Source: an uncultured Aequorivita sp.
Lineage (GTDB): Bacteria > Bacteroidota > Bacteroidia > Flavobacteriales > Flavobacteriaceae
Assembly: GCA_937125455.1 (NCBI GenBank)
Contig: CAKZLK010000059.1
Span: 1-64,000 of the forward strand
DNA length: 64,000 bases
Direction: 5' to 3'
In this document: piece after piece, positions 8,057 through 64,000 of the stretch
How positions within the stretch are numbered: position 1 is the stretch's first letter
Layout of the letters: every line of letters begins with the position of its first letter
Program-made: the position numbers and the translations under genes
The notes under the pieces: generated by a model
Database searches by the model: none
Seen by the model: the letters and a program-made list of their open reading frames with translations, nothing else
What the model was told of the DNA's origin: nothing

Positions 8057-11000
8057 TTATTTTGCCAAGATCAATCTGTGTGTTGAAGTTGAAGTTTCAG
8101 AAATAATTTTGATTACATAAACGCCATCAGAATAGCTGCTGAAATCTAAATCTCTTTCGCCATTTGAAGTTTTCAAATTGCTAACTATTTTTCCTGAGCC
8201 CAATTCAACAATAACAATTTGGATATCGTTTCCAAAAGTCGCAGGAATTTTTGCAGTCGCAAAACCTTTTGAGGGGTTTGGATAGATCACGATTCCACTT
8301 CCGCCTTCTGTAATATCTTCAATAGAAAGTAAAATGGTTTGTGCTTCAAAAGCTCCAATATCACGAATTCCTTCAAAAACTGTTTGATCAATTTGATCAT
8401 TAAATAAATCGGCTGGATCTCCGGCATTGTAAGCTACCGAACTTTCCAATAATTCGTGGGTTGAAGTAGCACCTCCGTTATTTTGAAGTGGACCGAGCAT
8501 TGGATCAACTTCTTCAATATCGTTGGCTTGCTCTGGGAAAGCATTTGCATCATCAGTTCCAATTAAATTGTAGTCATTTGATGCAAAATTTCCATTCACA
8601 TCAACTCCAGAAATTCCTGTATTGAGAGCAACCAAGGTGTTTTTTAAAGAAGTTGTAGTTTCGCTTTGAATACCACCTCCGTCGGAAAGGGCGTTGTTCA
8701 TTGCCACGGTTACCGCATTTAGATCAAAACTTGCGCCGTTGTTGTAAATTCCTGCTCCAGCTCCGTTGGCCGTATTGGTTGATATAGTACTCCGCATAAT
8801 CATTACATCTCCGCCAGAGGCATTGTGTATTCCGCCACCAGAGCTTGTTGCTCCGCTCGCCGAATTGTTCGAAATCGTAGAGGTAGTAACCTCTAATATT
8901 CCGCCATTGTTGAAAATTCCAGCACCACCATCATCTACGGCCGTTCCGAATGAACTGTTGCCGTCGATTGTTGTAGTGTCAATATTCATCATCGTTCCAC
9001 TTTGGTTCCAAAGTCCGCCACCTTCACGAGCAGCTTCATTTCCTGAAACTATACTACCTGAAATGATAATCAAACCACTATTTCCAGTTATGTGCAAACC
9101 ACCACCGTTTCCTGGAGCAGCCGTTCCTGCTGTTCCATTCACATCGTTATCGGTCATATCAGAATTTGTAAAAATTAACGTACCATCAATCAATTCAATA
9201 GCACCACCGGCTCTGTTTGCTGAATTTCCACTTAATGAAGAATCTGTAATCGTAACATCACCTGCAATACTCAACAATCCACCACCAGAACCTGAAGCCC
9301 CAGTTGAAAGATTGTTTGTGATTGAAGTTCCATTAACAATGTTCAGTGTTCCGCCATTGTTGAAAACTCCACCTCCACCGTTATCGGCGTCGGCTCCCTG
9401 AGCTATGTTGGCATCAATCATCATTCCGTCAACAGTCATAATTCCAGCACCGTTCCAAAGTGCACCACCTTCAGCAGCAGCAATATTTCCAGTTGCAGAA
9501 CCGCCTGTTATGTTTGAATCACCAGCGCCTGTAATGTGAAGTCCTCCTCCATTTCCTGGGGATGCGGAAGTTGTGTTTGAAGTGAAAATTACATTCGTAA
9601 GATTCAATTCACTTCCTGCAATCGAATTTTCTTCAATTGCACCACCAGCTCTCATTGAAGTGTTTCCAATCAATTCAGAATCAGAAACCGTCAAGATTCC
9701 AAGATTGTTCAAAATACCACCACCAGAACCAGCGGCTCCGTCTGCAATGTTATTTGAAATTATGGCATTCAAAACATTCAATGTTCCCATTTCGTTGAAA
9801 ATACCTCCACCTCCTTGATCGGCATCAGCTCCACTTGCAGTATTTCCATCAACAGTTGTTCCGTCAATAGTCATTGTCCCTGCGCCGTTCCAATATGCAC
9901 CACCTTCGGCTGAAGCGGTATTTCCGCTCGCAGTTCCGCCAGTAATGTTTGAGTCACCGGGACCAGTAATATGAACTCCACCTCCGTTTCCAGGCGCTGA
10001 AGCTGTACTGTTGTTCATTAAATTAGCATTTGTCAAGGTCAAAAGACTTCCTCCAACTGACTTTTCTTCAATTGCACCACCGGCACGCATTGAAGTATTT
10101 CCGGTTAAATCTGAATCTGTGACAGAAAGAGTTCCTTCATTATTTAAAATTCCTCCTCCAGAACCAGCGGCTCCATCAGCAATGTTATTTGAAATTGTAG
10201 CATTCAAAACATTTAAAGTACCGCCATTGTTGTAAATACCTGCTCCACCGTCATCGGCCATAGGACCGCTAGCGATGTTTGCATCTATTGTAGTTCCATC
10301 AACTGTCATAATTCCAGGACCGTTCCAAAGTCCACCACCTTCTCTTGATGCAGTGTTTCCACTTACGTTTCCGCCAATAATGTTTGAATCGCCAGCACCA
10401 GATATATGAACTCCACCCCCGTTACCTGGAGCGGAAGCTGTGCTGTTATTCATTAAATCAGTATTGCTTAAAGAAAGAAGACTTCCTGCAATTGAATTTT
10501 CCTCGATTGCACCTCCCGCTCTCATTGACGTATTTCCTGATAATTCAGAATCAGTAACTGTCAAAGTTCCAAGGTTATTCAAAATACCACCCCCAGAACC
10601 TGAAGTTCCGTTTGCTATATTATTGCTTACAACTGTTCCATTTTGAACAATTAAAGTACCTCCTTCATTGAAAATACCACCACCACCTTGGTCTGCGTCG
10701 TTTCCGCTTGCAGTGTTTCCATCTATTGTAACATTATCAACGGTCATTGTTCCGCTTCCATTCCACAAACCTCCACCTTCTGCTTTGGCTGTATTTCCGT
10801 TTACGGTACCGTTTGTTATGGTTGCAATTCCAGGACCTGTTATATGAAATCCACCACCGTTTCCAGGGGAATTTCCAACAGTATTATTGTTCAAGTTTGT
10901 ATTCAAAAGTGTAACAGTTCCGGGAGTTACCGAAGAATTGTCTTCAATACCACCACCTGCTCTTTTTGCTGAATTGTTTGAAATATTAGAGTCATTAACA

Positions 11001-14000
11001 GTTAAAGAACCTCCATCCACATTTTGGATTCCACCCCCAGAACCAGTGGTTCCAGTTGCAGCATTGTTAGATATAGTTGAAGAATTCTGAACGATTAAAG
11101 TACCTCCATTATTAAAGATACCTCCACCACCATTTGTTGCGTCATTACCACCTGCCTGATTGCTATCCAATAAAGTGCCATCAACGGTCATTGTACTTCC
11201 TACTTGGTTCCAAAGACCACCACCTTCGCTTGCTGCATCGTTATTGGTTAGGGTACTTCCTGTAATATTTATTGTTGCAACAGCTGTTACGTGCACTCCA
11301 CCACCATTTCCAGGATTTGGTGTACCTGCGGCAATATCTGCTTTGTTTCCAATTAAAGAAGCATTTGTAATATCTAATGTTCCAGCAACAATTTCAACAC
11401 CTCCGCCTGCGCGGTTTGCGGCATTTCCATCAATCATTGTACCTATAATAGTAACAGTGCCGTCAGTAGTTAAAATTCCACCACCTGAACCTGATACGCC
11501 GTTTGCAAGATTACTTTGAATAGTTCCATCGGTAACATTAAGATCACCTCCATTGTTATAAATTCCTCCACCACCGGCTCCGCTGATGGCTTTATTCAAA
11601 TCAATCATAGAATTTGTAACACTCATTGTGCTTCCAGCTTGGTTCCAAAGACCTCCACCTTGATTGAATGCCATGTTTGCAGAAACTGTAGCATCATTTA
11701 TAGTGGTTGTGGTAGCTCCTGAAATATGTATTCCGCCACCATTTCCTGGGTTTGGAATCCCAGCTGTTCCATTTACATCATTAAAAGCAATTGAAGTTCC
11801 ATTAAGATTTAAAGTGCCGTCAATTACTTCAATTCCACCTCCTGCGCGATTCGCATAATTTTGAAGGATTAAAATATTAGCAATCGTAACAGTTCCAGCA
11901 GTAGATAAAATTCCACCTCCAGAACCCGAGGCTCCATTGGCAATATTATTATTTATGGAAGTTCCCGCAAGAATGTCCAAGGTTCCTCCATCATTATAGA
12001 TTCCTCCACCACCATTGTCGGCATTTGCACCGCTGGCGATGTTATTTGTAACTGGCACCCCATCTACCGTCATAGTTCCACCACCATTCCATAAACCACC
12101 ACCTTCGGCAGCGGCTATGTTTGCGTCAACAGTTCCACCAGTAATTGTTGCATTTCCGGTTCCACCAACGTGAAGTCCACCACCATTTCCGGGGGCAGCA
12201 ACCGCTGGGGCAACACCTGCATTGTTAGTATCTAAAGTTGTACCCGACATTGTTAATGTTCCTGCAGCAATTTCAATTCCACCACCGGCACGGTTTGCTA
12301 CATTGCTTGTAATAATTGCATCGGTTACGGTTACATCGCCACCTGTACTGTGAATTCCACCACCAGAACCAGCAGTTCCGTCAGCTTTATTGTTTGTTAT
12401 TTCAGTTCCTGCAAGAACATTCAATGTTCCTCCGTTATTGAACAATGCGCCCCCACCATCATCGGCTAGAGCTCCACTCGCTGAATTTCCAGTCAAAACT
12501 GTTGCTTCAACCGTCATAATTCCAGCATTGTTCCACAATCCACCACCTTCTTGGGCAGCTTGGTTATTTTCAATTGTACTGTTTGAAATATCTGCATTTG
12601 TAGTTCCTGAAAGGTGAATAGCTCCTCCATTACCTGGGTTTGCCATAGTTCCTAAGCCAATATTTACTCCAGCTGAGTTTCCACTTAAAGTAACTCCATC
12701 TAAAGTTAAAGTATTACCTGAAGCATCTTCAATAGCACCACCGGCACGACTTGCGTAGTTTCCTGAGATTGTACTTCCGGTTACCACATTTAACGTGCCT
12801 CCAGTATTGTTGAACAAAGCACCACCACGTCCCCCGGGAGTAGCTCCCATTGCAACGTTAGCAGTTAAAGTTGTAGCAGCATCAACATTTAGAGTTCCTC
12901 CATTGTTAAAAATTCCACCACCGCCGGTTGCATCTCCAGTTGCTTTATTTCCTGTAATCGTAGTTCCAGAAACGGTCATTGTTCCTGTGCCGTTCCAAAG
13001 TCCACCACCTTCAAAGGCGATGTTATTTGTTATACTTCCACCATTATAATTTACATTTCCGGGACCGCTAATGTGAAGTCCTCCTCCATTACCTGGAGCT
13101 GGCGCATTGGCCGTATTTTGATTCATTACAACATCATTGAAAATATAGGTTTCACCTATAGCAGAATTTAGTTCAATAGCGCCACCAGCTCTGTTTGCTG
13201 TGTTGTCTTCAAAAGTAACACCATCAACAACTAAGGTTCCTGGGGTAAGATTAAAAATCCCACCACCAGAACCAGCTGTTCCGCTTGCTACATTTCGTAG
13301 TACTTGAGTTCCTGAAGCAAGAATAAGTGTTCCTCCGTTATTGAAGATTCCTCCACCACCATTATCAGAAGCATTTCCTGCGGCGGTATTTAAATCTATG
13401 AATGTATCTCCAAAAATTACATTTCCAGCTTGAACTGTCATTGTTCCGCCGTTATTCCATAAACCACCCCCTTCAGAAGCGGCTGCATTCAAAAACACAA
13501 TTCCACTTAGGGTTACGTTGGCCGAATTGCCCGTTACGTGCAGTCCTCCCCCATTCCCTGGGTTTGGAGTTCCGCCGGTGGCAGTTCCGTTTACGTCATT
13601 GAATATTAATTGTAAATCAACAAGATTTGCTATTCCATCAATAATTTCAATTCCTCCACCAGCGCGGTTTGCACCGTTTGAAGTAAGCGCAGCTGAATTG
13701 ATATTCAATGTTCCCGAAGTACTCAAAATAGCTCCTCCAGAACCAGAAGTTCCTGTTGCTATATTGCTAAAAATATCTGCGAACGAGTCAATATTCATGG
13801 TGCCGCCATCATTGTAAAGAGCCCCACCGCCTTGATCGGGATCGTTTCCTGTGGCTTCGTTTCCGCTCAATTCGGTATCGCTTCCGGTTATAGTCATTAT
13901 TCCGGTACCGTTCCAAAGTCCACCGCCTTCAACAGCTGTATTATTCTGTACAATACAATCTGTAAAGGTAGAATTTCCGGCCCCGCTTATATGGAAAGCA

Positions 14001-14725
14001 CCACCATTTCCGGGCGCCGTGCCGCCTATGGCGGTATTGTTTACAAAATTTGAATTGGTAAAGGAAATCATTCCTGCAGAATTGGTCTCTACAGCACCCC
14101 CCGCACGCACTGCGGAATTGCCAGTAAATGTACTATTGGAAACCACTAAAACCCCAGAGGAATTTACAAAAATCGCCCCTCCACTTCCAGCGGTTGCAGT
14201 TGCGTTATTTGAAGTGAATTCACTATCGGTTACCGTGGAATTTGCAACATTATTCAAATACAATGCTCCACCGCCATTGACGCCCTGCGCTTCATTGTTT
14301 GTGAATACACAATTGGAAACATCAAAAGTTCCCGTGTTTTGCGCAACCACACTTCCGCCATTCGCATTGCTCGTAAAATTCTGAAAAGTTATGTGGTTCA
14401 CACTTCCAGAAGCATTCACAAAACGTAATGCACGATTGTTTGCATTTGTTCCATCGATTATTGTACTGCCGTCGGCATTTCCTGTAATTACCAATTCATC
14501 GTTGACAACTATTTGTCCAGCAGTTAGTAGAACCGTTATGGTAGGGTCAAAAGTTATAAAAGAAGGTGTAAAGGCATCGGAATTGGCCTGATTGATTGCA
14601 TTCCGAAGAGTTCCTGGGCCATTATTGGCCCCGCTCGTGACATTATAGGTCTGCCCAATGGCGATTCCCGTAGTCATTAAAATTGAAACCAATACTAAAA
14701 GGTTTCGCGTAAAAGTGTTTCTCAT
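8057..14725 (-). CDS. giant T9SS-exported beta-helix repeat protein (choice-of-anchor Q type)
   Basis: A 2222-residue secreted surface protein. Residues 1-25 are a signal peptide. About 26-110 is the N-terminal segment typical of choice-of-anchor Q proteins (GPGTLRNAINQAN). About 110-2030 is a right-handed beta-helix-like array rich in Gly, Asn, Thr and Ser. About 2040-2140 is an anchor-Q-like block with NDYNLIG and LGPLQNNGG. The last ~75 residues are a type A T9SS sorting domain (IYPNPSKGFATAK to the end). The array is a 12-fold super-repeat of about 148 residues. Each unit has five rungs marked PGNGGG-hydrophobic-H, EGGGLWN, GGGGI(F/Y)N, GSGGGI and RAGG(A/G)IE. The probable role is cell-surface adhesion or a released matrix protein. 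No catalytic domain is visible. Codon 1 is ATG at 14725. Confidence 0.9.
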   Translation of the reverse strand: MRNTFTRNLLVLVSILMTTGIAIGQTYNVTSGANNGPGTLRNAINQANSDAFTPSFITFDPTITVLLTAGQIVVNDELVITGNADGSTIIDGTNANNRALRFVNASGSVNHITFQNFTSNANGGSVVAQNTGTFDVSNCVFTNNEAQGVNGGGALYLNNVANSTVTDSEFTSNNATATAGSGGAIFVNSSGVLVVSNSTFTGNSAVRAGGAVETNSAGMISFTNSNFVNNTAIGGTAPGNGGAFHISGAGNSTFTDCIVQNNTAVEGGGLWNGTGIMTITGSDTELSGNEATGNDPDQGGGALYNDGGTMNIDSFADIFSNIATGTSGSGGAILSTSGTLNINSAALTSNGANRAGGGIEIIDGIANLVDLQLIFNDVNGTATGGTPNPGNGGGLHVTGNSANVTLSGIVFLNAAASEGGGLWNNGGTMTVQAGNVIFGDTFIDLNTAAGNASDNGGGGIFNNGGTLILASGTQVLRNVASGTAGSGGGIFNLTPGTLVVDGVTFEDNTANRAGGAIELNSAIGETYIFNDVVMNQNTANAPAPGNGGGLHISGPGNVNYNGGSITNNIAFEGGGLWNGTGTMTVSGTTITGNKATGDATGGGGIFNNGGTLNVDAATTLTANVAMGATPGGRGGALFNNTGGTLNVVTGSTISGNYASRAGGAIEDASGNTLTLDGVTLSGNSAGVNIGLGTMANPGNGGAIHLSGTTNADISNSTIENNQAAQEGGGLWNNAGIMTVEATVLTGNSASGALADDGGGALFNNGGTLNVLAGTEITNNKADGTAGSGGGIHSTGGDVTVTDAIITSNVANRAGGGIEIAAGTLTMSGTTLDTNNAGVAPAVAAPGNGGGLHVGGTGNATITGGTVDANIAAAEGGGLWNGGGTMTVDGVPVTNNIASGANADNGGGGIYNDGGTLDILAGTSINNNIANGASGSGGGILSTAGTVTIANILILQNYANRAGGGIEVIDGTLNLNGTSIAFNDVNGTAGIPNPGNGGGIHISGATTTTINDATVSANMAFNQGGGLWNQAGSTMSVTNSMIDLNKAISGAGGGGIYNNGGDLNVTDGTIQSNLANGVSGSGGGILTTDGTVTIIGTMIDGNAANRAGGGVEIVAGTLDITNASLIGNKADIAAGTPNPGNGGGVHVTAVATINITGSTLTNNDAASEGGGLWNQVGSTMTVDGTLLDSNQAGGNDATNGGGGIFNNGGTLIVQNSSTISNNAATGTTGSGGGIQNVDGGSLTVNDSNISNNSAKRAGGGIEDNSSVTPGTVTLLNTNLNNNTVGNSPGNGGGFHITGPGIATITNGTVNGNTAKAEGGGLWNGSGTMTVDNVTIDGNTASGNDADQGGGGIFNEGGTLIVQNGTVVSNNIANGTSGSGGGILNNLGTLTVTDSELSGNTSMRAGGAIEENSIAGSLLSLSNTDLMNNSTASAPGNGGGVHISGAGDSNIIGGNVSGNTASREGGGLWNGPGIMTVDGTTIDANIASGPMADDGGAGIYNNGGTLNVLNATISNNIADGAAGSGGGILNNEGTLSVTDSDLTGNTSMRAGGAIEEKSVGGSLLTLTNANLMNNSTASAPGNGGGVHITGPGDSNITGGTASGNTASAEGGAYWNGAGTMTIDGTTVDGNTASGADADQGGGGIFNEMGTLNVLNAIISNNIADGAAGSGGGILNNLGILTVSDSELIGNTSMRAGGAIEENSIAGSELNLTNVIFTSNTTSASPGNGGGLHITGAGDSNITGGSATGNIAAAEGGALWNGAGIMTVDGMMIDANIAQGADADNGGGGVFNNGGTLNIVNGTSITNNLSTGASGSGGGLLSIAGDVTITDSSLSGNSANRAGGAIELIDGTLIFTNSDMTDNDVNGTAGTAAPGNGGGLHITGNSGLIIISGSIVSGNEAAREGGGLWNQSGTMMNIDTTTIDGNSSFGTAVDDGGAGIFNNGGILEVTTSTISNNSASGATSSGGGIHNASGGDVMIMRSTISTNTANGAGAGIYNNGASFDLNAVTVAMNNALSDGGGIQSETTTSLKNTLVALNTGISGVDVNGNFASNDYNLIGTDDANAFPEQANDIEEVDPMLGPLQNNGGATSTHELLESSVAYNAGDPADLFNDQIDQTVFEGIRDIGAFEAQTILLSIEDITEGGSGIVIYPNPSKGFATAKIPATFGNDIQIVIVELGSGKIVSNLKTSNGERDLDFSSYSDGVYVIKIISETSTSTHRLILAK
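8800..14012 (-). repeat. 12 tandem super-repeats of about 435-463 bp inside the giant gene
   Basis: The codons for PGNGGG-x-H recur near 9100, 9544, 9980, 10415, 10851, 11298, 11733, 12180, 12622, 13082, 13545 and 13997. Period lengths are 435-463 bp, always multiples of about three residues' resolution by eye. The units around 9530-10870 are the most alike, for example sharing GNTSMRAGGAIEE, suggesting the newest duplications. The repeats are protein-coding and in frame throughout. Confidence 0.85.
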
Positions 14726-52999: not shown

Positions 53000-55900
53000 A
53001 TGAGTTCCTATAGAATATTTTTATCTCCATTAAAAAAAGTTATTTCCTTACTCATCGTTATATTTTTCTCAGCCTGTGCCACCTATAAACCACAGAGCAA
53101 TATTTCAGAATCACCAGAACAAGATGATGCCATTTACACTTTTTATATTGCCGGTGGAATTGGAAATACTGATGATGAAACAGATCCTAATATAAAAAAA
53201 ATACTAAAATCATATTTAGAAAAAGCAACTGATGAGAGTACTCTTTTATTTACCGGTAATTACACGAAGCCAGATGGATCTGAAAAAGAAAATAAAGAAA
53301 TAATAAACAAGGAACTTGAACTTACAAAAAAATTTAAGGGAAAGACCGTTTTTGTTCCCGGGCATTATGAGTGGAAAAGTAAAAACACAAAAGACATTGA
53401 ATGGGTTGAAAACTATATAAAAGATAGCGATATCAAGGATGTAAAGGTAGAACCAAACAATGTTTGTCCATTAGAGTTTAAGCAAATAAATGCTGATTTG
53501 GATATTATTTATGTTGATAGTAATTGGTTTGATACCAATTGGGATCATGTAGATGGAATTAATAAAAAATGTACCGATATAAATACCAAAAGAAGGTTTG
53601 TTGAAGAATTGGAAGGAATGATTAAAGATTCCCGTGGAAAAAACTTGGTTATTGTAATGCATCATCCTATTTATAGCAATGGACGTTTTGCCGGTAAGGA
53701 AACATTTTTACAAACCATTACACCACTTCCAATAGTTGGAACGCTTTTAAATGAAGCGGATTATCTTGCAAGTTTCAACAAACAACAATTATACTCGTAC
53801 AGATATAATTATTTACGCACTACGGTTAGTGCTTTGGTACAGGAAAATCATAGGGTAACTATTGTTTCTGGACACGAAAAAAGTCTGCAATATCTAAGTG
53901 GAGGAAACATAAACCAAATAATAAGCGGTTCTATGGGTAGTGCAGATGGAACAAAATTATCAAAAGGTACTATTACCAATATTGGTGGAAGCTTAAAATA
54001 TGAAGGAAAGTTTACGTATGGAAAAGAGGGTTTCGCTATTTTAAAATATTATAAGGACGGTTCTTCCAAAGTTACTTTTGTAACCGCTGATGACACTAAC
54101 ACTTTTGACGTTCAGGAAAAATTTCCCCAGGAAAAGAAACCCTTCTCCACTCCCACTTTTAATGAAAAAACCAAAACCCTACCCATAACCACTGATGAAG
54201 ATAAACTTAATAAATCTGGTTTCTATCAATTTATTTGGGGGAAAAGGTACCGTTCCTACTTCGGAAAACCAGTTACCGCAAACATAGCCATTTTAGATAC
54301 TCTCTATGAAGGACTAAAAGTAACCCAGCAAGGCGGTGGCCATCAATCCTTCTCTGCAAGGTTGGAAGACACTGATGGAAGAGAATATGCGATGCGTGGC
54401 CTTGAAAAAGATCCCCTTAAGTTTTTGCGATATAAAATAAAAGGTATTTCCTATTCTGAAGATAAATATGAAGGGACTTTTGCCGAAAATGTAATCTATG
54501 ATTTTTTTACAACCACACATCCATATATGCAATTGGTAATAAATCCCTTGGCAAAATCTGTTGGTATTAATCATGCAAACACAAAATTATACTACGTGCC
54601 CAAACAAACTGGCTTTAGGCTTTTAGGAGAAAATTACGGCGATCAATTGTATTTTATTGAAGAACGCCCAAATGACGAACAGAAAGATTATGAAGGATAC
54701 AATAGAGCAAACCCTAATGAAGAAGGGAAAATTGTAAACTTTGAAAGCACTACGGACGTTCTTGAAAAACTAAATAGAGACGAGAAATATTCCATCGACC
54801 AGAAGGCATACATGCGCGCACGAATTTTTGACATGCTCATAGGCGATTGGGATAGGCATCAAGACCAATGGCGCTGGGTTGAATATGAAATAAACGATGA
54901 TGACATTCGCTTTATTCCGATACCTAGGGATAGAGATGCAGCATTTTCAAAATTTGATGGAATTGCAATTCCACTTATAAAATTAGTATTGCCAGATGTT
55001 CGTTTTTGGCAAAGTTATGGCCCTAAAATTAATAATGTAAAATGGTTTAACGGAGAAGGCAATAATCTGGACAGAGCCTTTTTAAATAAATACGGTGTTT
55101 CAGTATGGGTTGAAGAAGCTAAATATATTCAGGATAATTTGACAGATGATGTTATTGAGCAAGCTTTTAAGAGACTTCCAAAAGAAGTTCAGGACGAAAA
55201 TTCAGAAGAAGTAAAAAATAATTTAAAAGGACGTCTGCAAAACCTAGATAAAATAGCTAAACGCTACGGTGAGTTAATGAATAAGACGGTTGTAATTCAT
55301 GGTACCCATAAAGATGATAAGGTAGAAATAACAAGGCTTCCAGAAGGTAAAACGCGAGTAGTTCTTAAAAGATTATTGACTGATGCTAAAAACAAAGTAT
55401 TTTTTGATAGAATTTTTGACCACAATGAAACCAATGAAATATGGATTTACGGCTTAAACGATGATGATATATTTGAAGTTTCAGGTGACGGAGATCATGA
55501 AATAATGATTCGTTTGGTAGGTGGCTTTGGAAAAGATGAGTTTAAAGTTACAAATCGCAAAAAATTGAAAGTGTACGATTGGCCTTATGAAAAGACCGAA
55601 TTCGAAGAAAAGACACCAGCACACCAATTTACGCGCTTGTATGAAACAAATACATTTTTTTGGAGAAATTTTAATGAAAACAACAACGTTCTACTGCCAA
55701 ATGTTGGCTTTAGAACAGATGACGGTTTGTATTTAGGTGCAAAGGATACATACACAAATAAAGGGTTCAATGGTGAGGATTTTAGATATAAACATTATCT
55801 ATCCGCAAACTATTATTTTGATTTTAGAGCCATTGAAGCTGAATACCAAGGAACTTTTAGCAATATAATACCCAATTGGAATCTAGAAGCTGGGGCTTAT

Positions 55901-56707
55901 TTCACAAGTGATCTTTTCACCAAAAACTTTTTTGGATATGGAAATGATACAACCTATGATGAGGATTTAATAGGTAAAGAATACAACCGAGCCAGAACAC
56001 AACAAATTAAAGCGAATTTTGGTATTGCTTACAGAACCATTAGAATCAAAGGGCTTTTTGAAAGCTATGAAGTAGCAAATACCCCGGACAGATTTTTCAA
56101 TACTTCCAATTTTACACCAGAAATATTTGATACTCAAAATTATGTAGGCGCTGAAGCCTCATTAAGTTATGCAAATGAAGATGCCGCGGATTTTCCTACG
56201 CGTGGTTTTTATTTAGATGCCGCTATTGGCTATAAAACCAATGTTAAATTGGATAATGTGAATTTTGGTTATGCTAATTTAGCATTAGGATTTAACAGAA
56301 AACTGATTCCCTCAGGAAATTTGGTGCTCGGTTCAAAGGCTGAAGTGAATACCAATTTCGGAAATGATTTTTTCTTTTATCACGCACCATCCATCGGTGG
56401 GAGTAACGGACTTCGTGGATATAGGGACGAACGGTTTACTGGAAAAACTTCGTTCTACCAAAGCTCAGATTTAAAACTTCGTCTTGGAAGAATTGTTACT
56501 GCAGTTGTGCCCATATCCTTAGGAGTTTACGGTGGGTTTGACTACGGTCGTATTTGGGTAAATAACGATACTTCAAATACTTGGCATACCTCTTACGGTG
56601 GTGGTGTTTGGTTTGGTACGCTCAACGCACTTGGATTTAATGTAGGTTATTTTTTATCTGAAGAAGATGCCATCGTACAGGTTGGTTTTAAAACAATCAT
56701 TCGTTAG
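53000..56707 (+). CDS. phosphoesterase-like / CotH-kinase-like / BamA-type barrel protein, copy 1 (degenerate phosphoesterase)
   Basis: A 1235-residue envelope protein. Residues 1-26 are a lipoprotein signal (FFSAC, Cys26). About 45-370 is a calcineurin-like phosphoesterase region whose metal motifs are broken compared with the paralogue at 56823: GDAG is AGGIG, GDN is GNY (86-88), GNHE is GHYE (121-124), GHEH is GHEK (291-294). MHHP (220-223) is kept. About 430-700 has a Gly-rich loop QGGGHQS (near 445), then IGDWDRHQDQWRW (614-626) and PIPRDRDAAF, which resemble the CotH/FAM20-type kinase catalytic and metal loops. About 900-1235 is an outer-membrane barrel of BamA/D15 type with LRGYRDERFTG. 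The kinase relation is my inference. Confidence 0.85.
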   Translation: MSSYRIFLSPLKKVISLLIVIFFSACATYKPQSNISESPEQDDAIYTFYIAGGIGNTDDETDPNIKKILKSYLEKATDESTLLFTGNYTKPDGSEKENKEIINKELELTKKFKGKTVFVPGHYEWKSKNTKDIEWVENYIKDSDIKDVKVEPNNVCPLEFKQINADLDIIYVDSNWFDTNWDHVDGINKKCTDINTKRRFVEELEGMIKDSRGKNLVIVMHHPIYSNGRFAGKETFLQTITPLPIVGTLLNEADYLASFNKQQLYSYRYNYLRTTVSALVQENHRVTIVSGHEKSLQYLSGGNINQIISGSMGSADGTKLSKGTITNIGGSLKYEGKFTYGKEGFAILKYYKDGSSKVTFVTADDTNTFDVQEKFPQEKKPFSTPTFNEKTKTLPITTDEDKLNKSGFYQFIWGKRYRSYFGKPVTANIAILDTLYEGLKVTQQGGGHQSFSARLEDTDGREYAMRGLEKDPLKFLRYKIKGISYSEDKYEGTFAENVIYDFFTTTHPYMQLVINPLAKSVGINHANTKLYYVPKQTGFRLLGENYGDQLYFIEERPNDEQKDYEGYNRANPNEEGKIVNFESTTDVLEKLNRDEKYSIDQKAYMRARIFDMLIGDWDRHQDQWRWVEYEINDDDIRFIPIPRDRDAAFSKFDGIAIPLIKLVLPDVRFWQSYGPKINNVKWFNGEGNNLDRAFLNKYGVSVWVEEAKYIQDNLTDDVIEQAFKRLPKEVQDENSEEVKNNLKGRLQNLDKIAKRYGELMNKTVVIHGTHKDDKVEITRLPEGKTRVVLKRLLTDAKNKVFFDRIFDHNETNEIWIYGLNDDDIFEVSGDGDHEIMIRLVGGFGKDEFKVTNRKKLKVYDWPYEKTEFEEKTPAHQFTRLYETNTFFWRNFNENNNVLLPNVGFRTDDGLYLGAKDTYTNKGFNGEDFRYKHYLSANYYFDFRAIEAEYQGTFSNIIPNWNLEAGAYFTSDLFTKNFFGYGNDTTYDEDLIGKEYNRARTQQIKANFGIAYRTIRIKGLFESYEVANTPDRFFNTSNFTPEIFDTQNYVGAEASLSYANEDAADFPTRGFYLDAAIGYKTNVKLDNVNFGYANLALGFNRKLIPSGNLVLGSKAEVNTNFGNDFFFYHAPSIGGSNGLRGYRDERFTGKTSFYQSSDLKLRLGRIVTAVVPISLGVYGGFDYGRIWVNNDTSNTWHTSYGGGVWFGTLNALGFNVGYFLSEEDAIVQVGFKTIIR

Positions 56708-56724
56708 GAATCACTTGTTGAAGA

Positions 56725-56762
56725 TTAATAAAGGGGATTTATCTTATTAAATTCCCTTTATT
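56725..56762. terminator. shared terminator-like hairpin between the two paralogues
   Basis: TAATAAAGGG (56725-56734) pairs with CCCTTTATTA (56753-56762) around an 18-base loop that can extend the stem. It lies in the 115-base gap between convergent genes. Confidence 0.5.
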
Positions 56763-56822
56763 AATATGAAAATTCAAATACAAAACGAATCCAGCTACGT
56801 TATTTGAAAAAGATAGAAACAG

Positions 56823-59800
56823 TTAGAATGAGAATCCTATCCCAAAACTATAACGTGATCCTTCCTTTGAATTGAATGCACTAAAATTTGCCCCCAGTCC
56901 GCCTTGTCCATTTATCCATAAACCTCCACCAAAAGAGGTATGCCATATTTTCGAATCTTCATTTGGCACCCATACCCTTCCAAGGTCTGCTCCCCCATAA
57001 ACACCTATTTGCACCGGAAACAAGCCGATGAGGAATTGGTCAAAACTGTAGCGTAAATCCGCATTACCGACCAAAAAGGATTTTCCCGTGAACCGTTCTT
57101 CCCTATAACCTCTCAATCCATTTTTTGCACCCAATTGGGCTCCTTGATAAAACTGAAAATTATTTCCCAAGTTAATTTGGGTCTGGAGATTTGTTTTCAA
57201 AACCAATTTTTCATTTTTAATCAAGGCGTTATAAAACACAATCCTTGATGCAAGAACACCGAATACATTATCCACATCTTCAAGGTCATCCGTCACGCCC
57301 AGCGAAAGGTCAAATAGCATACCTCGAGCAGGGTTTAAAGGATTATCATAACTCCGGTAATTATAAATACCTTCTACAGTTCCATAATAATTGCTATTAT
57401 CCAGAGTCACTGTACCTTTATCTTGATACAAATTACTTATGCTTTTATTTAATGTTATAGCTTCAAATTTGGTCTGAAACGTGAACACACTACCAAAACT
57501 GGAGTTGCGGACCAATGCAGCTTTTGCAGAAATAGACTGCAGTTCTATTCTATTAAAATCATAACCACTTTCTGATTGTCCATTTTCAGATTGATTCCCA
57601 TAACCAAAATAATTGACCGTGTAATTTGGGCTTTCAATATGGGCTCCAATTTTCAAATTTAAATCTCCGATTGAATTGGCAAACTCCCCTTCATAATTTA
57701 GATCGAAACTTGAAGTATCAAAATAATATCCAGCAGTTAAATTATGGCGTTTGGCGAATGGATTTCTTTTAAAGCTATTTACTGTATAGATAAACTGCAT
57801 CCCCAACCTGAAGCCATCATCTGGGTTATATCCTAATGCTGGTGCGATTCTTTTTGTGTCACTTATCTGCTTTCGGTAATCATAGGTATTTAAATCATAT
57901 ATATCAGTAAAAATGGGAATACCTTTTTCATTTTCTTCAATGGTAGATGGATTGGTGTCAGAATCATAAAACTTAACCCTTCTTCCTTCATTAATTCTGT
58001 AAACATCCGTTCCGTTCCCTCCAATTACGCGAACGTAAATAAGATCTGAATCCTTTCCATTTACTTCGAAAACATCATTGCCGTCCAAACCATAAATCCA
58101 TAGCTCTCGGGTATCTTTATGAAAATAGTCATGTTCAATCATTAAATCTTCTTTTTTACCATCAGTATATCGATACGTTTTCACATTTGTTTTTCCGCCG
58201 GCTTCACGGGTTATTTCAAAATAATCAGCTTCATCAGTTCCTGTTATAGTCTGTAAATTCGAAAGATAATCGTAATAACGGTTGGCTATAGCTACAAGAT
58301 TTTTTTTTCGAGCTAGGAGTGTTTCTTTAATTTTCTGAAGTTCCGCGTCTTGTACTTCGGGAGGAATTTCATTAAAAGCTTCTTCAATAATACCATTTGT
58401 AAGGGTATCCTGAATTTGCTTGGCTACGTATTCCCATTGCTGTCTACCCGAACGCTCCAATAACGCACGATCCAGAATAATTCCTTCTTCATTAAACCAT
58501 TTCAAGTCTGTTAGATTATCATCATAAACATGTGTTTGTCTAGAGCCACTGAAAATAGAGCGGGCTACGTTAAGAATATTCCCGTCAAAGCTGGAAAAAG
58601 CATCATCTCTGTTCCTTGGGATGGGAACATATACATTTTTGCCGTAACGATTGTAATATTCTGCCCATCGCCAATGGTCACTTTCACGATCCCAGTCCCC
58701 TATCAACATATCAAAAAGGCGGGAGCGAATGTAATTTTCCTCATCTACCTGTATATCTCCACCACGACGAATTTTTGCTAAAATGTCGTCTGTTGTCTGA
58801 ATATCATCAGGATACTTAAAAGTTTTTTCACCTTCACTGCTTTCTGTAGGTTCCAAAGAAATAAAGTAAAGTTCATCTCCAAACTTATCATTATAGTCTC
58901 CCAGCGCACTTTGTTTGGGAACATAATAAAGTTTTGAATCTGTATAAAATACATTAACAGCTTTAGCCATTTTAGGAATGGATAAAGCGGCATATGGATG
59001 TGAGGAAGTATAAAAATCGGCATTGAGGGTTTCTTCCTTTGGCAATTTTTTTTCTTCATCAGGTCCAGCAGATACCTCACTCTCTTTTCCAGGAATGGTT
59101 TTTTCTAAAAAATCCAAAGAGTTTTTACCCAGCGCCCGCATTCTATATTCATTACCCTTTTTATCCTTTAATCTAAGGGAACGATATTCTTTTTGAACTC
59201 CTTCCCTTACGACTGTAACTCCTCCAAAAAGTGAATCTAATTGTGCCACTTTTGCTTTTACTGGAGTTGTATATGCATCTTGGTATCGGCTACCCCAAAT
59301 AGTCTTAAAAAAAAGGGATTCGTTAATACTATCTTTTTTGTAGATAGGCACTACTTTTTCCGAAGCAAAAGACTGTGACAGTGAAGAGGTATCATAATTT
59401 TTAATTGGTGCAAAAACCTCTTTCTCAAAAACCAATTTTGGATCTAAAGTTTCATTGGCAATATAATATTGAACCCAAGAAGAGCCATCTGTAAAAACAG
59501 TTAAAACAGCAAATCCTTGTGCGCCACTTGAAAACAACCCATTTTTACCTAATGAAGCATATGAATTTTTAGAACCAGAGCCAGAAACTATTTGTTTTAC
59601 ACCGTCCTCTTCAAGATATTGCAGTGTATGCTCATGCCCAGAAACGAATACTAACCGATCGCTATTTAGGGTCGTGTTTTTAAGGCGAATCATTAAATTA
59701 TTATACAACTCATTATACCTATCCTGAATTGAAACGCCTCCTTGTGAACGAATTTGAATAACAAGTGATGTTAAAAATGGCAAGGGCCAATTTTGCTGAG

Positions 59801-60590
59801 TGGGATACAAATGTCTGCTTGCTCCAAAATAACCTCCATGGCTACCATTGGTAAGCATAGGATGGTGCATTGCAAAAACTATTGTTTTATTTTGATGATT
59901 TTCCAGTTCTTGTTGGATATCAATAAAAAGCTTGTCTCTGGATTTTATTTCACAGTTTTCATTAATGCTTGGGTGAGAATTCCAATCTTCAAGATACCAT
60001 TGGGTATCTATCATTATTAATTGAATATTATCCGTAATCGGAATACTTTCTAAGGGGCATCCATTACTAGGCTTAAAGGCATCAATACCACCAAAAATTT
60101 TTTCAATATAGTTTTCCTCTCTTTTAACTCCAGGAACTCCCCCGTTATACCATTCGTGATTACCTGGAATAAAATATACAGTACCATTAAAATCTTTTAC
60201 AGATTCATATTGTGCATTAATCATATTTTCAGAAAAAGCACGGTTTGAGTCTTCTTCAGGGTCCATTCCCCCAGGGTAGATATTATCGCCTAAAAAAAGT
60301 GTATAATCGTCTTTAGATGGATGTTTTTGCAGATATTTATTAAAAGCCGTCAAAGCATCGCTCTTTCCTCCCATAGGCGACAATCCAGCATCACCAACCA
60401 AATAAAAGGTTTTTTCGACTTCCTTTTGGGATGGAAAAACTGGCTTAAAATCGTTCTCTTTAAATTGGGGAGCATAAGTTGCACAGGAGGAAACTAAAAT
60501 AATGAAAAGTATTAGAAGGCAACCTCTTTTTAAGTAGCGTGAACTAGTAAAAAAAAAATTATTTATTAAAGAATTTAATTTTGAAAACAT
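56823..60590 (-). CDS. metallophosphoesterase / CotH-kinase-like / BamA-type barrel protein, copy 2 (intact phosphoesterase)
   Basis: A 1255-residue paralogue of the 53000 gene in convergent orientation. A lipoprotein signal ends LVSSC (Cys36). The calcineurin-like phosphoesterase is complete: VGDAG (Asp67), LGDNIYPGG (Asp102, Asn103), GNHEW (Asn144, His145), MHHPMLTNGSHGG (His242/243) and SGHEH (His319, His321). The middle region has EYRSLRLKDKKGNEYRMRAL (468-487), LIGDWDRESDHWRW (629-642) and PIPRNRDDAF (656-665), resembling CotH/FAM20-type kinase loops. About 920-1255 is a beta-barrel with LRGYREERFTG and a C-terminal Phe. A lipid anchor plus a barrel in one chain is unusual. Phosphatase activity is likely; the substrate is unknown. 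Confidence 0.88.
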   Translation of the reverse strand: MFSKLNSLINNFFFTSSRYLKRGCLLILFIILVSSCATYAPQFKENDFKPVFPSQKEVEKTFYLVGDAGLSPMGGKSDALTAFNKYLQKHPSKDDYTLFLGDNIYPGGMDPEEDSNRAFSENMINAQYESVKDFNGTVYFIPGNHEWYNGGVPGVKREENYIEKIFGGIDAFKPSNGCPLESIPITDNIQLIMIDTQWYLEDWNSHPSINENCEIKSRDKLFIDIQQELENHQNKTIVFAMHHPMLTNGSHGGYFGASRHLYPTQQNWPLPFLTSLVIQIRSQGGVSIQDRYNELYNNLMIRLKNTTLNSDRLVFVSGHEHTLQYLEEDGVKQIVSGSGSKNSYASLGKNGLFSSGAQGFAVLTVFTDGSSWVQYYIANETLDPKLVFEKEVFAPIKNYDTSSLSQSFASEKVVPIYKKDSINESLFFKTIWGSRYQDAYTTPVKAKVAQLDSLFGGVTVVREGVQKEYRSLRLKDKKGNEYRMRALGKNSLDFLEKTIPGKESEVSAGPDEEKKLPKEETLNADFYTSSHPYAALSIPKMAKAVNVFYTDSKLYYVPKQSALGDYNDKFGDELYFISLEPTESSEGEKTFKYPDDIQTTDDILAKIRRGGDIQVDEENYIRSRLFDMLIGDWDRESDHWRWAEYYNRYGKNVYVPIPRNRDDAFSSFDGNILNVARSIFSGSRQTHVYDDNLTDLKWFNEEGIILDRALLERSGRQQWEYVAKQIQDTLTNGIIEEAFNEIPPEVQDAELQKIKETLLARKKNLVAIANRYYDYLSNLQTITGTDEADYFEITREAGGKTNVKTYRYTDGKKEDLMIEHDYFHKDTRELWIYGLDGNDVFEVNGKDSDLIYVRVIGGNGTDVYRINEGRRVKFYDSDTNPSTIEENEKGIPIFTDIYDLNTYDYRKQISDTKRIAPALGYNPDDGFRLGMQFIYTVNSFKRNPFAKRHNLTAGYYFDTSSFDLNYEGEFANSIGDLNLKIGAHIESPNYTVNYFGYGNQSENGQSESGYDFNRIELQSISAKAALVRNSSFGSVFTFQTKFEAITLNKSISNLYQDKGTVTLDNSNYYGTVEGIYNYRSYDNPLNPARGMLFDLSLGVTDDLEDVDNVFGVLASRIVFYNALIKNEKLVLKTNLQTQINLGNNFQFYQGAQLGAKNGLRGYREERFTGKSFLVGNADLRYSFDQFLIGLFPVQIGVYGGADLGRVWVPNEDSKIWHTSFGGGLWINGQGGLGANFSAFNSKEGSRYSFGIGFSF

Positions 60591-60694: not shown

Positions 60695-61879
60695 ATGGTT
60701 GATATAGTTGAAACTACTGATAAATTTGTACTAAATCTTTTCAAAGAAAAATTATCCAGTACATACATATACCATAATTATACACATACAAGGCGTGTTT
60801 ATAAAAGTATAAATGAAATTATTGAAGATTCACAAATTAATGTTAAAGATGCAACTATATTGCGACTTTCGGCACTTTTACACGATACTGGCTACACTGT
60901 AAAACGTGATGGCCACGAAGAAGAAAGTGTTAAGATTGCAAGAGAATTTCTTCAATCTGAAAATGTTGATCCTGATATAATTAACGGTGTTGAAAGATGT
61001 ATTGCAGCAACCAAATTTAAAAACACTATACCTAAAGATGATCTTGAAAAGATAATTCGCGATGCGGACTCATCACACTTTGGAAAAAAATATTTTGAAG
61101 AAATCAGCAATTTATTAAGACAGGAATACCTGGAACAGAACATACATAATTTTACCCCACAAGAATGGCTGAATGAAAATATTAAAGTGCTTATTGAAAC
61201 CCATCAATTTTATACCGATTATGCACTTAAAAATTGGCAACCAATAAAAGATATGAATCTTGCCAAATTGATAAATAAACGGAAAAAAAATGAGGTTAAA
61301 CTAAACAAGGAAAAGAAAAAAGCAAAGCTTAAGGCAAAATACAAAAACGATAGTCCGGAAAGAGGAATACAGACTTTTTATAGGACTGCATTGAGAAACC
61401 ATATGAAGCTTAGCGACATCGCAGATACCAAAGCAAACATAATGCTTTCTGTGAACGCTATTATAATCTCTTTGGTAATTTCAAATCTTGTTTCAAAGCT
61501 TGACGTGAATAATTTTTTAATAGTCCCAACAGCTATATTTATATTCTTTAGTGCTATTAGTATGATTTTAGCCGTTATAGCCACCCGTCCAAATGTTACC
61601 AGGGGTGAATTCACCAAAGAAGACGTAGCCAATAAAAGCGTAAACCTAACTTTTTTTGGTAATTTTCATAAAATGGAACTTGAACAATATGAATGGGCCA
61701 TAGAGGAGCTTTTGAAAGACAGGGATTACGTTTACAAATCGCTTACCAAAGATCTTTATTTCTTAGGAAAGGTACTTGACAGAAAATATAGAATATTGCG
61801 ACTTACTTACACGATGTTTGTTGTGGGTACTATAATATCATTGCTCTGTTTTGCTATATTCTTCTATTTCAAATCATAA
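60695..61879 (+). CDS. HD-domain / PycTM (DUF5706) fusion protein
   Basis: A 394-residue inner-membrane protein. Residues about 15-180 are an HD phosphohydrolase domain with His27/His31 (YHNYTHT), His63-Asp64 (LLHDTG), His74 (GHEEES) and Asp123/125 (RDADSSH). A Lys-rich linker spans about 190-222. About 225-394 is the PycTM/DUF5706 region (NHMKLSDIADTKANIMLSVN) with membrane helices at about 249-267, 274-297 and 371-391. PycTM is the membrane effector domain of Pycsar anti-phage systems, but no uridylate/cytidylate cyclase gene is adjacent. The HD part might cleave a nucleotide signal, so this may be a housekeeping relative. Confidence 0.88.
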   Translation: MVDIVETTDKFVLNLFKEKLSSTYIYHNYTHTRRVYKSINEIIEDSQINVKDATILRLSALLHDTGYTVKRDGHEEESVKIAREFLQSENVDPDIINGVERCIAATKFKNTIPKDDLEKIIRDADSSHFGKKYFEEISNLLRQEYLEQNIHNFTPQEWLNENIKVLIETHQFYTDYALKNWQPIKDMNLAKLINKRKKNEVKLNKEKKKAKLKAKYKNDSPERGIQTFYRTALRNHMKLSDIADTKANIMLSVNAIIISLVISNLVSKLDVNNFLIVPTAIFIFFSAISMILAVIATRPNVTRGEFTKEDVANKSVNLTFFGNFHKMELEQYEWAIEELLKDRDYVYKSLTKDLYFLGKVLDRKYRILRLTYTMFVVGTIISLLCFAIFFYFKS

Positions 61880-61882
61880 AGG

Positions 61883-64000
61883 TTAATTCTGTATTTCTGA
61901 AATAAGATCATCATAGGTATAATATTCCTTTGCTTTATCATTATTCAACGAATACAGAATATTTACTCGCAACGCTTTTAGACCGGTAACACCTTGAAGA
62001 TCTTCTAATTCCAAAAGCTCAATTTCTTCGCCCAATAATTTCTGATGCTGAAGGAACTTTATGTATTTCAAATATTCTTCTTCGTCTTCTTTTTGAGAAT
62101 AAATTATTGCAATTTTCCCTGGCTGGGTTACTCGTTCTTCAGTATGTTTTATATTGGCTTTATCAACCCTTTTCTTTACAACTTCATAGCGTGCATTATA
62201 TGTTCCATCTACATCAAATCGTTTTTCATCCATTCGGAAACGTAGTGATAGAGAACCATTGAAAGCTAAGATCATTGAAGCAACATCCAAAACAATTGGC
62301 AACTTATCCTTAAAACGGTAATAGTTGTTTTCCATTTCACAAACTACCTGCAATTGCCACAATCTTAAGTTTTTAAGGTATACTATATTGAAAGACTTTT
62401 CTTTTGTAATGGATTCTCCAATGTAAAGATTGTGCTCTACACCATCCGTTTTAAAACGCTCAAAATAATGTGGATACATTTTCTGTGCTTCTTGTTGCTT
62501 TTTATCCAATAAAGACGCAAGCCTTTTATTAATAAGCATTACCGATTCGTCATAATCTTTTCTGTATTTATAGACAAAACCAGTGCTCGAGTCAATCAAT
62601 TCGTAATATTCATCCACAAATCCTTTATACAGTTCGTTTTTCTCTCGAATATATTTGAAAAAAGGAATTATTTCCGAAACCAAAAAATTCATTATTTTCT
62701 TCTCGGTATCTACTTGGAGGTTTTCTTCAATTTCATTTAAAAATCCAATTGTATTAAAAATCATTTGATCAATAATAGGCATTGGGTATTGGTTATTCAA
62801 TTTTTTCAAAACCTTTTCAATATAGCCCAATTGAATTAAAAGATCTTGTTTAGTTGCTTCATTTCTTGCCTCAGAGGATCCTTTTATATCAGTTTGTCCA
62901 TAGAGTGGAAAAACATCTTCAAAAACAACCTCACGGAAAAAAGTAGGGTTTCCATCTGCGATTGTGTTTAAGTAGCGTTTTGCTTCTTTTCTAAATTTCC
63001 AATGCACGCTGCTATGGATTGAAGTACATTCTTCCTGAATTACAAGCTCTACTTCGTTTTCAAGATTACTTTTTGAGCGTACAACAGAATCAATAAGAAA
63101 GGGCATAATATCCCTAAGTTTATTGGCGTTTATGGTGTTAAGATCATGGGCATTAGGAGATACAAGTTCCAACACTCCCAGAATTTTTTCTTCTGAAACG
63201 ATAGAGGCAAAAATGGCGCTTTTCATTCCTTGTTCCAACATTTTTTTGTAAAGCAAATTCTCTGGATACAGTTTATGATATCGCTCAGCGTCCGTTACAC
63301 AATAAAATTCCTTTTGTTTGAAAAGTGTATAATAAGAAGCACTACAAAGCGCGTCTTTGCTGATTTGTGATTTTTTCCCTTGAAGAATAAAACTTGGTAT
63401 TTCCTTAAATAATGTTTGCTCAAAAGTTTCATTTTCTTCGTTATAGTCCGTAAAACCTATCATAAGGTCTTTCAGATTGAAAATGGCGCGAAAAATCCGA
63501 CTGAACTCTGTATTGTGAAATCCTGCATTTTTTTCTAAACGCAGTAAGTTGGTTTTGAATTCAGAAATGGAAACATCCATTGTAACGTCCGTTAGCGTTG
63601 CAATTACAAAGCCATTAAAAACCCAACTTCCCGGAGGAAACTTTTCTTTCCAAACCGAAATGTCCTCAAAACTTTCCAACAATTCATTAATATCGTCCTG
63701 GGAAATTTCTTTTGACTTAGGTGTCTTTTGAATATCAACAAAATCCGTGTTGTAGAATAATCTATAGTTTTTAACGATGCCATTCCCGTCGGGAATATTG
63801 TAATAAAAAGAACGTTTAAAATCTACTATTTCACCGTAATAATGATTTAGTATTAAACTACAGCCCATTATATAGAATTGATCTTCATCAAAATTTATAA
63901 TGTCCATTGAAAAATCATCTCCGGCATTTTGTAAAATATCTTTATAGCGCTGGGTACTTTTAAAAGCTACCTCTTGAAATGGAATAGTCGCAAATTTAAT
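61883..64000 (-). CDS. GAF domain-containing protein, 5' end outside window
   Basis: Leftward gene with 705 residues in the window. The frame stays open without stop to base 64000. The residues upstream of the first internal ATG (63907) read like normal protein (VAFKSTQRYKDILQNAG), so the gene is cut by the window edge. A GAF-like sensor region lies at about 160-310 counting from the visible start (FYCVTDAERY, GVLELVSPNAHDLNTINA). Long helical parts follow. The C-terminal part (QPGKIAIIYSQKEDEEEYLKYI) looks Rossmann-like. It is cytoplasmic with no membrane helix. It is convergent with the HD-PycTM gene, with a 3-base gap and no terminator. Confidence 0.8.
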   Translation of the reverse strand: MKFATIPFQEVAFKSTQRYKDILQNAGDDFSMDIINFDEDQFYIMGCSLILNHYYGEIVDFKRSFYYNIPDGNGIVKNYRLFYNTDFVDIQKTPKSKEISQDDINELLESFEDISVWKEKFPPGSWVFNGFVIATLTDVTMDVSISEFKTNLLRLEKNAGFHNTEFSRIFRAIFNLKDLMIGFTDYNEENETFEQTLFKEIPSFILQGKKSQISKDALCSASYYTLFKQKEFYCVTDAERYHKLYPENLLYKKMLEQGMKSAIFASIVSEEKILGVLELVSPNAHDLNTINANKLRDIMPFLIDSVVRSKSNLENEVELVIQEECTSIHSSVHWKFRKEAKRYLNTIADGNPTFFREVVFEDVFPLYGQTDIKGSSEARNEATKQDLLIQLGYIEKVLKKLNNQYPMPIIDQMIFNTIGFLNEIEENLQVDTEKKIMNFLVSEIIPFFKYIREKNELYKGFVDEYYELIDSSTGFVYKYRKDYDESVMLINKRLASLLDKKQQEAQKMYPHYFERFKTDGVEHNLYIGESITKEKSFNIVYLKNLRLWQLQVVCEMENNYYRFKDKLPIVLDVASMILAFNGSLSLRFRMDEKRFDVDGTYNARYEVVKKRVDKANIKHTEERVTQPGKIAIIYSQKEDEEEYLKYIKFLQHQKLLGEEIELLELEDLQGVTGLKALRVNILYSLNNDKAKEYYTYDDLISEIQN

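Follow-up and report, generated by a model that had tools for sequence, protein, structure and literature searches.

Two convergent genes of an uncultured Aequorivita sp. (Flavobacteriaceae; contig CAKZLK010000059.1, positions 1 to 64,000, a 64,000-nucleotide stretch hereafter called the window) raise the question of what activity, if any, is built into a long chain that ends in an outer-membrane barrel, and why two such chains should stand side by side. Copy 1 is an open reading frame (ORF) of 1235 amino acids on the plus strand (53000..56707), and copy 2 is an ORF of 1255 amino acids on the minus strand (56823..60590). The two are 33% identical over their full length and share one domain order, delimited with family hidden Markov models (HMMs) built here: the phosphoesterase domain comes first, followed by a middle domain (~355 residues), a linker (~140 residues), and an Omp85-type barrel. 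We put at roughly 60% the probability that they are paralogues of a bifunctional phosphatase/kinase-like enzyme tethered to the outer membrane, whose labor would have been divided after duplication: the phosphatase ligands are mostly lost and the kinase-like motifs intact in copy 1, and the purple-acid-phosphatase site is intact and the kinase-like motifs degenerate in copy 2. This reading draws, at the level of sequence, on the domain order, a distant homology, the reciprocal decay of the two sites, the presence of one phosphatase-intact chain per sampled genome, and a gene set in which the modules are split. A first-pass annotation of the same DNA had described two convergent lipobox chains of ~1240 residues, and the N-termini (FFSAC in copy 1, a lipobox-like LVSSC in copy 2) agree with it, as do the motifs IGDWDR...W, PIPR(D/N)RDxAF, and LRGYR(D/E)ERFTG, which are present in both chains. 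The reciprocal decay of copy 1 and copy 2, as judged from their residues, is a new point that goes beyond that earlier reading, and it suggests that the window holds a natural division between kinase and phosphatase.

Reciprocal decay of the phosphatase and kinase-like sites

The statement that both chains carry calcineurin-like motifs proved correct for copy 2 only, as the Pfam Metallophos match (2.4e-10) was to copy 2, with none in copy 1. The TRAP-like phosphatase domain of copy 2 (residues 56-395; 59406..60425, minus strand) displays GDAG, GDNIY, GNHEW, MHHP, and GHEHT and retains all eight residues of the purple-acid-phosphatase set (D, DxxY, NH, H, HxH); the phosphoesterase domain of copy 1, as delimited by the family HMM (residues 42-378; 53123..54133, plus strand), retains two of the eight. 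Comparison with TRAP places the ligand of the HHP motif on its first His, which is the one used in the scored set. A phosphatase profile of 22 domains, picked for intact GNH(D/E) and GH(D/E)H motifs, matched human TRAP (2bq8) at 1.9e-9, and six of the seven PDB sequences that it reached at E 0.001 were purple acid phosphatases. Because of these matches, together with that of Metallophos in copy 2, we assign the domain to the TRAP-like purple acid phosphatases. A metallophosphoesterase of R. anatipestifer (Niu 2021) was set aside as a comparator, since a review (PMC10202324) lists it as an effector of the type IX secretion system.

The kinase-like domain of copy 1 (residues 404-762; 54209..55285, plus strand) carries all 12 scored motif residues, distributed over a Gly-rich loop placed by profile alignment (GGGHQS, residues 445-450; 54332..54349), a catalytic-loop motif (GDWDRHQDQW, residues 615-624; 54842..54871), and a metal-Asp motif (PIPRDRDAAF, residues 640-649; 54917..54946). 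Its counterpart in copy 2 (residues 423-778; 58257..59324, minus strand) is degenerate, with GVQ, DRESDHW, and RNRD, and holds 8 of the 12. The Gly-rich loop noted earlier in copy 1, GGGHQSF, is confined to that chain; in copy 2 the aligned segment reads GVQK and two of the three glycines are lost. At E 1, middle-domain matches in the window's genome were confined to copy 1 and copy 2.

This pattern recurs across the Flavobacteriaceae. Chains with all 8 phosphatase residues were scored as phosphatase-intact and those with at least 11 of the 12 kinase-like residues as kinase-intact; the resulting decay counts refer to genomes, not to independent events. The 48 family genomes with at least two matches contained 121 matches, including 95 chains longer than 700 amino acids, all of which were scored: 37 were intact at both sites, 46 were phosphatase-dead and kinase-intact, 11 were phosphatase-intact with a degraded kinase-like site, and one (L349, without a phosphatase domain) was intact at neither. 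Exactly one phosphatase-intact chain was found in each of these 48 genomes, accompanied by at least one kinase-intact chain, and 36 of the 48 had more than one long chain. In all 11 genomes whose phosphatase-intact chain had lost the kinase-like set, a phosphatase-dead, kinase-intact chain was also present, and the kinase-like set was kept in 46 of the 47 phosphatase-dead chains. Among 64 further family genomes with a sampled locus, 61 had one chain intact at both sites, and a degraded kinase-like site appeared in none; the remaining three comprised a chain cut by a contig end (G303), a chain split between frames (G384), and a multi-chain genome (G595) in which a phosphatase-dead chain had been sampled first and the second chain was intact at both sites. 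Both sites were kept in 61 of the 63 sampled single-match genomes, the chains of the other two being incomplete. The earlier claim that both modules act within one chain accordingly suits the sampled single-copy relatives but not this window, where each chain has one intact site.

The losses in the 11 kinase-degraded chains were concentrated at particular positions. None kept all three glycines, H620 was changed in all 11, and D644 was changed in 10 (to Asn in 8), with R466, R619, and W624 kept in all 11 and D618 in 10. A tree of 110 chains, made by a quick method with the scored columns included and with every fourth of the further genomes, required a minimum of five changes in phosphatase state and two in kinase state, the direction of which we infer. 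A 10-chain kinase-degraded clade (support 100) contained copy 2, a phosphatase-dead clade apart from it contained copy 1, and the chain of G277, whose predicted catalytic Asp is changed, formed a kinase-degraded branch of its own. In a broader tree of 111 chains, the kinase-degraded chains of the copy 2 type again formed one clade.

Kinship of the middle domain

The annotation had taken the middle region for an atypical kinase. We compared an 84-sequence middle-domain profile with the profiles of HipA_2 (PF20613; 28 sequences), CotH (PF08757; 20), and HipA_C (PF07804; 20), using as nulls 120 unrelated families from the flanking ORFs of the named loci (40 with at least 5 members and 80 with 2-4). 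When the middle-domain profile was the query, the score was 43.4 for HipA_2 (228 columns) and 30.3 for CotH (139 columns), against 27.5 (21 columns) for the top null. In the opposite direction, the middle domain scored 49.3 against HipA_2 (top null 29.1, over 66 columns) and 40.5 over 153 columns against CotH (top null 31.4, over 22 columns). Reversing profiles within the set of four families gave 12 controls, of which the highest reached 21.5, spanning 131 columns. For scale, HipA_2 and HipA_C scored 32-33 against each other, and CotH scored 16-24 against HipA_2 or HipA_C. An earlier comparison, with 31 diverse middle-domain members (A1) and 40 null families, likewise had HipA_2 and CotH exceeding the top null and HipA_C falling short of it. 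In the alignments, the Gly loop of HipA_2 coincides with GGG, its Lys lies close to R466, and its Asn pairs with Q623; the catalytic Asp of both HipA_2 and CotH falls at D618, and their metal, DFG-type Asp at D644. Independently of these comparisons, the PADLOC model PDC-M03A matched copy 1 (1.2e-5), 13 of the 31 A1 members (best model 4.4e-7), both of the HipA_C proteins tested (2.4e-9 and 1.4e-7), and one of three HipA_2 proteins (0.0015), and by matching all of these it bridges the middle domain to the two HipA families.

Conservation of the motifs points the same way. Among 204 related proteins, near-copies included, D616 was kept in 196, D618 in 190, D644 in 186, D646 in 190, R466 in 190 (Lys in two), and the neighboring K470 in 193. 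With the Asp and Arg residues kept in most of these proteins, the occurrence of the motifs exceeds chance. Loss of the Asp residues in GDWDR and R(D/N)RD had been named as grounds for abandoning the kinase inference; they are kept, save in distant barrel-only lineages.

A number of results weigh against this kinship. No Pfam or NCBIfam kinase was matched over the cut-off in the middle domain of either chain, the position usually held by the ATP-binding Lys is occupied by Arg (R466), and the margin of CotH over the nulls is small when the middle domain is the query. HipA_C, tried as the closest relative, scored 19.1 and 20.7, no better than the nulls, and was rejected. In a PDB search, the A1 profile reached the kinase CtkA on the catalytic loop at E 0.2, behind a chance match to an EF-hand (0.11), a hit that by itself proves nothing, and a family-only profile of 79 rows (A2) found no kinase in the PDB. 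Copy 2 and 18 of the 31 A1 members were unmatched by PDC-M03A at E 0.01 (best model). Motifs were lost in the distant barrel-only members (L267-L277), and two chains in the broader tree that come from another taxonomic family (L026 and L028) were phosphatase-dead and had changes at D618 and R619. Direct PDB sequence searches also returned no significant kinase. On balance, the controlled profile-profile comparison, the PADLOC bridge, and the Asp conservation uphold the atypical-kinase inference at the sequence level, and a kinase-like domain from the HipA/CotH superfamily is the most likely identity of the middle region. Of the families compared, HipA_2 is nearest by sequence and CotH next. 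Since HipA_2 gave no match over the Pfam cut-off, the middle domain would be related to that family rather than a member of it; CotH gave none either, though its profile-profile score exceeds the nulls. Membership of FAM20C (PF06702) was rejected, the best match being E 0.14 in one of the 31 A1 members and none lying over the cut-off; weak FAM20C matches (E 0.1) occurred in 11 of 198 genomes, none over the cut-off and none in the window's genome.

Probable envelope placement, distribution, and neighboring genes

The D15-like barrel reported earlier was recovered in both chains as NCBIfam NF047779 (Omp85_fam; 1.5e-15 and 1.4e-16, below the model cut-off). It occupies residues 903-1234 of copy 1 (55706..56701, with LRGYRDERFTG at 56411-56443) and residues 920-1255 of copy 2 (56826..57833, ending in Phe), so that each chain closes with a C-terminal Omp85 barrel bearing a (V/I/L)RG(Y/F) loop. 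A barrel profile found nothing in the PDB at E 1, and no POTRA family was among the Pfam matches of copy 1 and copy 2 at E 1. The preceding linker domain, defined by the family HMM (residues 764-901 in copy 1, 55289..55702; residues 780-918 in copy 2, 57837..58253), gave no family match over a cut-off in copy 1. Copy 1 begins with a signal peptide and lipobox Cys26 (53000..53077), with no acidic run after the Cys, and a lipobox pattern was present in 77 of 162 phosphatase-barrel chains; in all 77 the number of acidic residues between +2 and +6 was at most one. Bacteroidota lipoproteins bound for the cell surface carry an acidic export signal. The absence of such an acidic run, combined with the C-terminal Omp85 barrel, favors the periplasmic face of the outer membrane as the likely site of the enzymatic part.

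At E 1e-5 or better, matches were found in 141 of 199 genomes of the family, 18 of 198 of the class (single-sequence query), and 114 of 296 of the phylum (profile query). Among 227 protein records, a set that counts copies and cut ORFs, 174 had all four domains, 24 were kinase-like-linker-barrel, 15 kinase-like-linker, 11 kinase-like alone, and 3 of other layouts. In two genomes of one distant genus (L255, 2841-6793; L256, 5629-9594), three adjoining genes on the same strand encode a kinase-like-linker lipoprotein, a phosphatase, and a barrel, with Metallophos and Omp85 over their Pfam cut-offs (2e-11 for the Omp85 barrels). The modules, being fused in one lineage and neighbors in another, look like one functional unit. 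Relatives with the kinase-like domain alone (L281-L285 and L393-L411) are ~420 amino acids long, mostly with one N-terminal membrane helix. In all 24, which comprise 23 of the 26 in the 48 multi-match genomes and one from G595, the kinase-like motifs are kept; a Tyr replaces W624 in one of them. At L278 (7129-12148), three stand-alone kinase-like genes are adjacent, one of them with an altered catalytic loop in which D618 is changed to Ser and H620 to Arg.

Divergent from copy 2 lies a gene (60695..61879, plus strand) for a protein with an HD domain and a Pycsar-type PycTM membrane region (Pfam PycTM 3.2e-37, HD 5.2e-10), which has a relative in 65 of 80 named loci. Where both genes were placed, it was divergent from the chain gene and at most 400 bp away in 45 of 64 loci, the chain being phosphatase-intact in 40 of those 45 (scored by the second His of HHP, in an earlier residue set); in five loci it lay 3' of a phosphatase-dead chain on the same strand (earlier residue set). 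The HD-PycTM gene is a frequent neighbor of the phosphatase-intact chain in Flavobacteriaceae loci. Beyond it, at 61883-63907, is a 674-amino-acid protein without a Pfam match at E 0.01, 48% identical to a 790-amino-acid protein that stands beside HD-PycTM in relatives; the 674-amino-acid protein has relatives in 47 of 80 loci. The window also contains an ORF of 2222 amino acids on the minus strand (8057-14725).

Proposed function and comparison with known systems

We envisage an ancestral chain composed of a TRAP-like phosphatase, a kinase-like domain of the HipA/CotH superfamily, a linker, and an Omp85-type barrel. After duplication, copy 1 would have retained the kinase-like site and copy 2 the phosphatase, with the N-terminal lipid and the C-terminal barrel presumably holding the enzymatic part at the periplasmic face. 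A protein, glycan, or lipid of the envelope could receive a phosphate or a nucleotide from the kinase-like site; the phosphatase could remove that group or process the donor or the product. Topology, catalysis, and opposition on one substrate are deduced rather than observed, and together they would describe an extracytoplasmic kinase/phosphatase unit that is split across two chains here. ATP is scarce in the periplasm, which weighs against such a unit. More broadly, and only tentatively, Bacteroidota might practice reversible phosphorylation at the periplasmic face of the outer membrane, with a HipA/CotH-type writer and a TRAP-type eraser mounted on Omp85 barrels, ancestrally in one chain and repeatedly divided under a rule of one phosphatase per genome; we judge this wider picture to fall somewhat short of even odds.

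Other explanations account for parts of the same evidence. The middle domain may have a kinase fold and act on a glycan or lipid (lipopolysaccharide, lipid A, or O-glycan) or AMPylate its target, with the phosphatase trimming the same molecule and the barrel receiving or exporting it. FAM20B, a kinase working on a glycan, provides a model for this, the Arg and Gln that stand at the Lys and Asn positions set the domain apart from standard protein kinases, and the Omp85 barrel suggests envelope biogenesis; however, nothing in the sequence points to the substrate, and membrane-anchored and lipoprotein forms exist that lack the barrel. We consider this alternative unlikely. The lack of a significant match to any curated family or PDB chain would also suit a non-enzymatic middle module that binds substrate or plugs the barrel, leaving the phosphatase as the sole enzyme. 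We consider that quite improbable, given that the losses in the 11 kinase-degraded chains fall at positions aligned with nucleotide and metal binding, that G277 lost its predicted catalytic Asp on a separate branch, and that nearly all phosphatase-dead chains retain the kinase-like set. Similarly doubtful is a type Vd-like secretor, in which the barrel would carry a phosphatase-kinase passenger to the cell surface: the enzyme domains precede an Omp85 barrel, as in PlpD, but POTRA is absent at the Pfam threshold used, the N-terminus has a lipobox, and the kinase-like and phosphatase proteins of L255 and L256 are separate products beside the barrel.

Little is known of phosphorylation outside the bacterial cytoplasm. 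This widespread family could make it testable by supplying specific genes and residues, along with natural variants that keep a single function; the reciprocal decay would permit either activity to be studied without engineering. Our literature search found no paper describing the phosphatase/kinase-like/barrel layout, subscription papers and preprints being mostly beyond its reach, and in a word search the terms phosphatase, phosphoesterase, and kinase did not occur in the main text of PMC4104836.

The likenesses to described systems are partial. The Omp85 superfamily, including the lipoprotein Omp85 and PlpD, shares the barrel with its LRGY motif and differs in that the chains here have an enzymatic N-terminus and no POTRA match. 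HipA_2 and other HipA-type kinases share the Gly-rich loop and the catalytic and metal Asp, aligned over 227-228 columns that include the C-terminal part; HipA-type proteins are cytoplasmic and single-domain, whereas the domain here is predicted to be exported, forms one chain with a phosphatase and a barrel, and has Arg replacing Lys. CotH kinases are exported spore-coat and secreted proteins. The alignment pairs GDWD with their catalytic loop (NLD) and PRD with their WD motif and does not extend to the N-lobe; we know of no CotH protein with a phosphatase or a barrel. Copy 2 resembles mammalian TRAP/ACP5 in its scored site and profile match, and differs in lying within an outer-membrane chain whose paralogue, copy 1, has decayed at that site. 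The homology of the middle domain to FAM20C is not significant. The likeness to the FAM20C/TRAP pair is one of working only, in that a purple acid phosphatase counters an exported kinase. FAM20C and TRAP are two separate eukaryotic proteins that act on secreted phosphoproteins, and our proposal, if true, would provide a bacterial parallel to their cycle.

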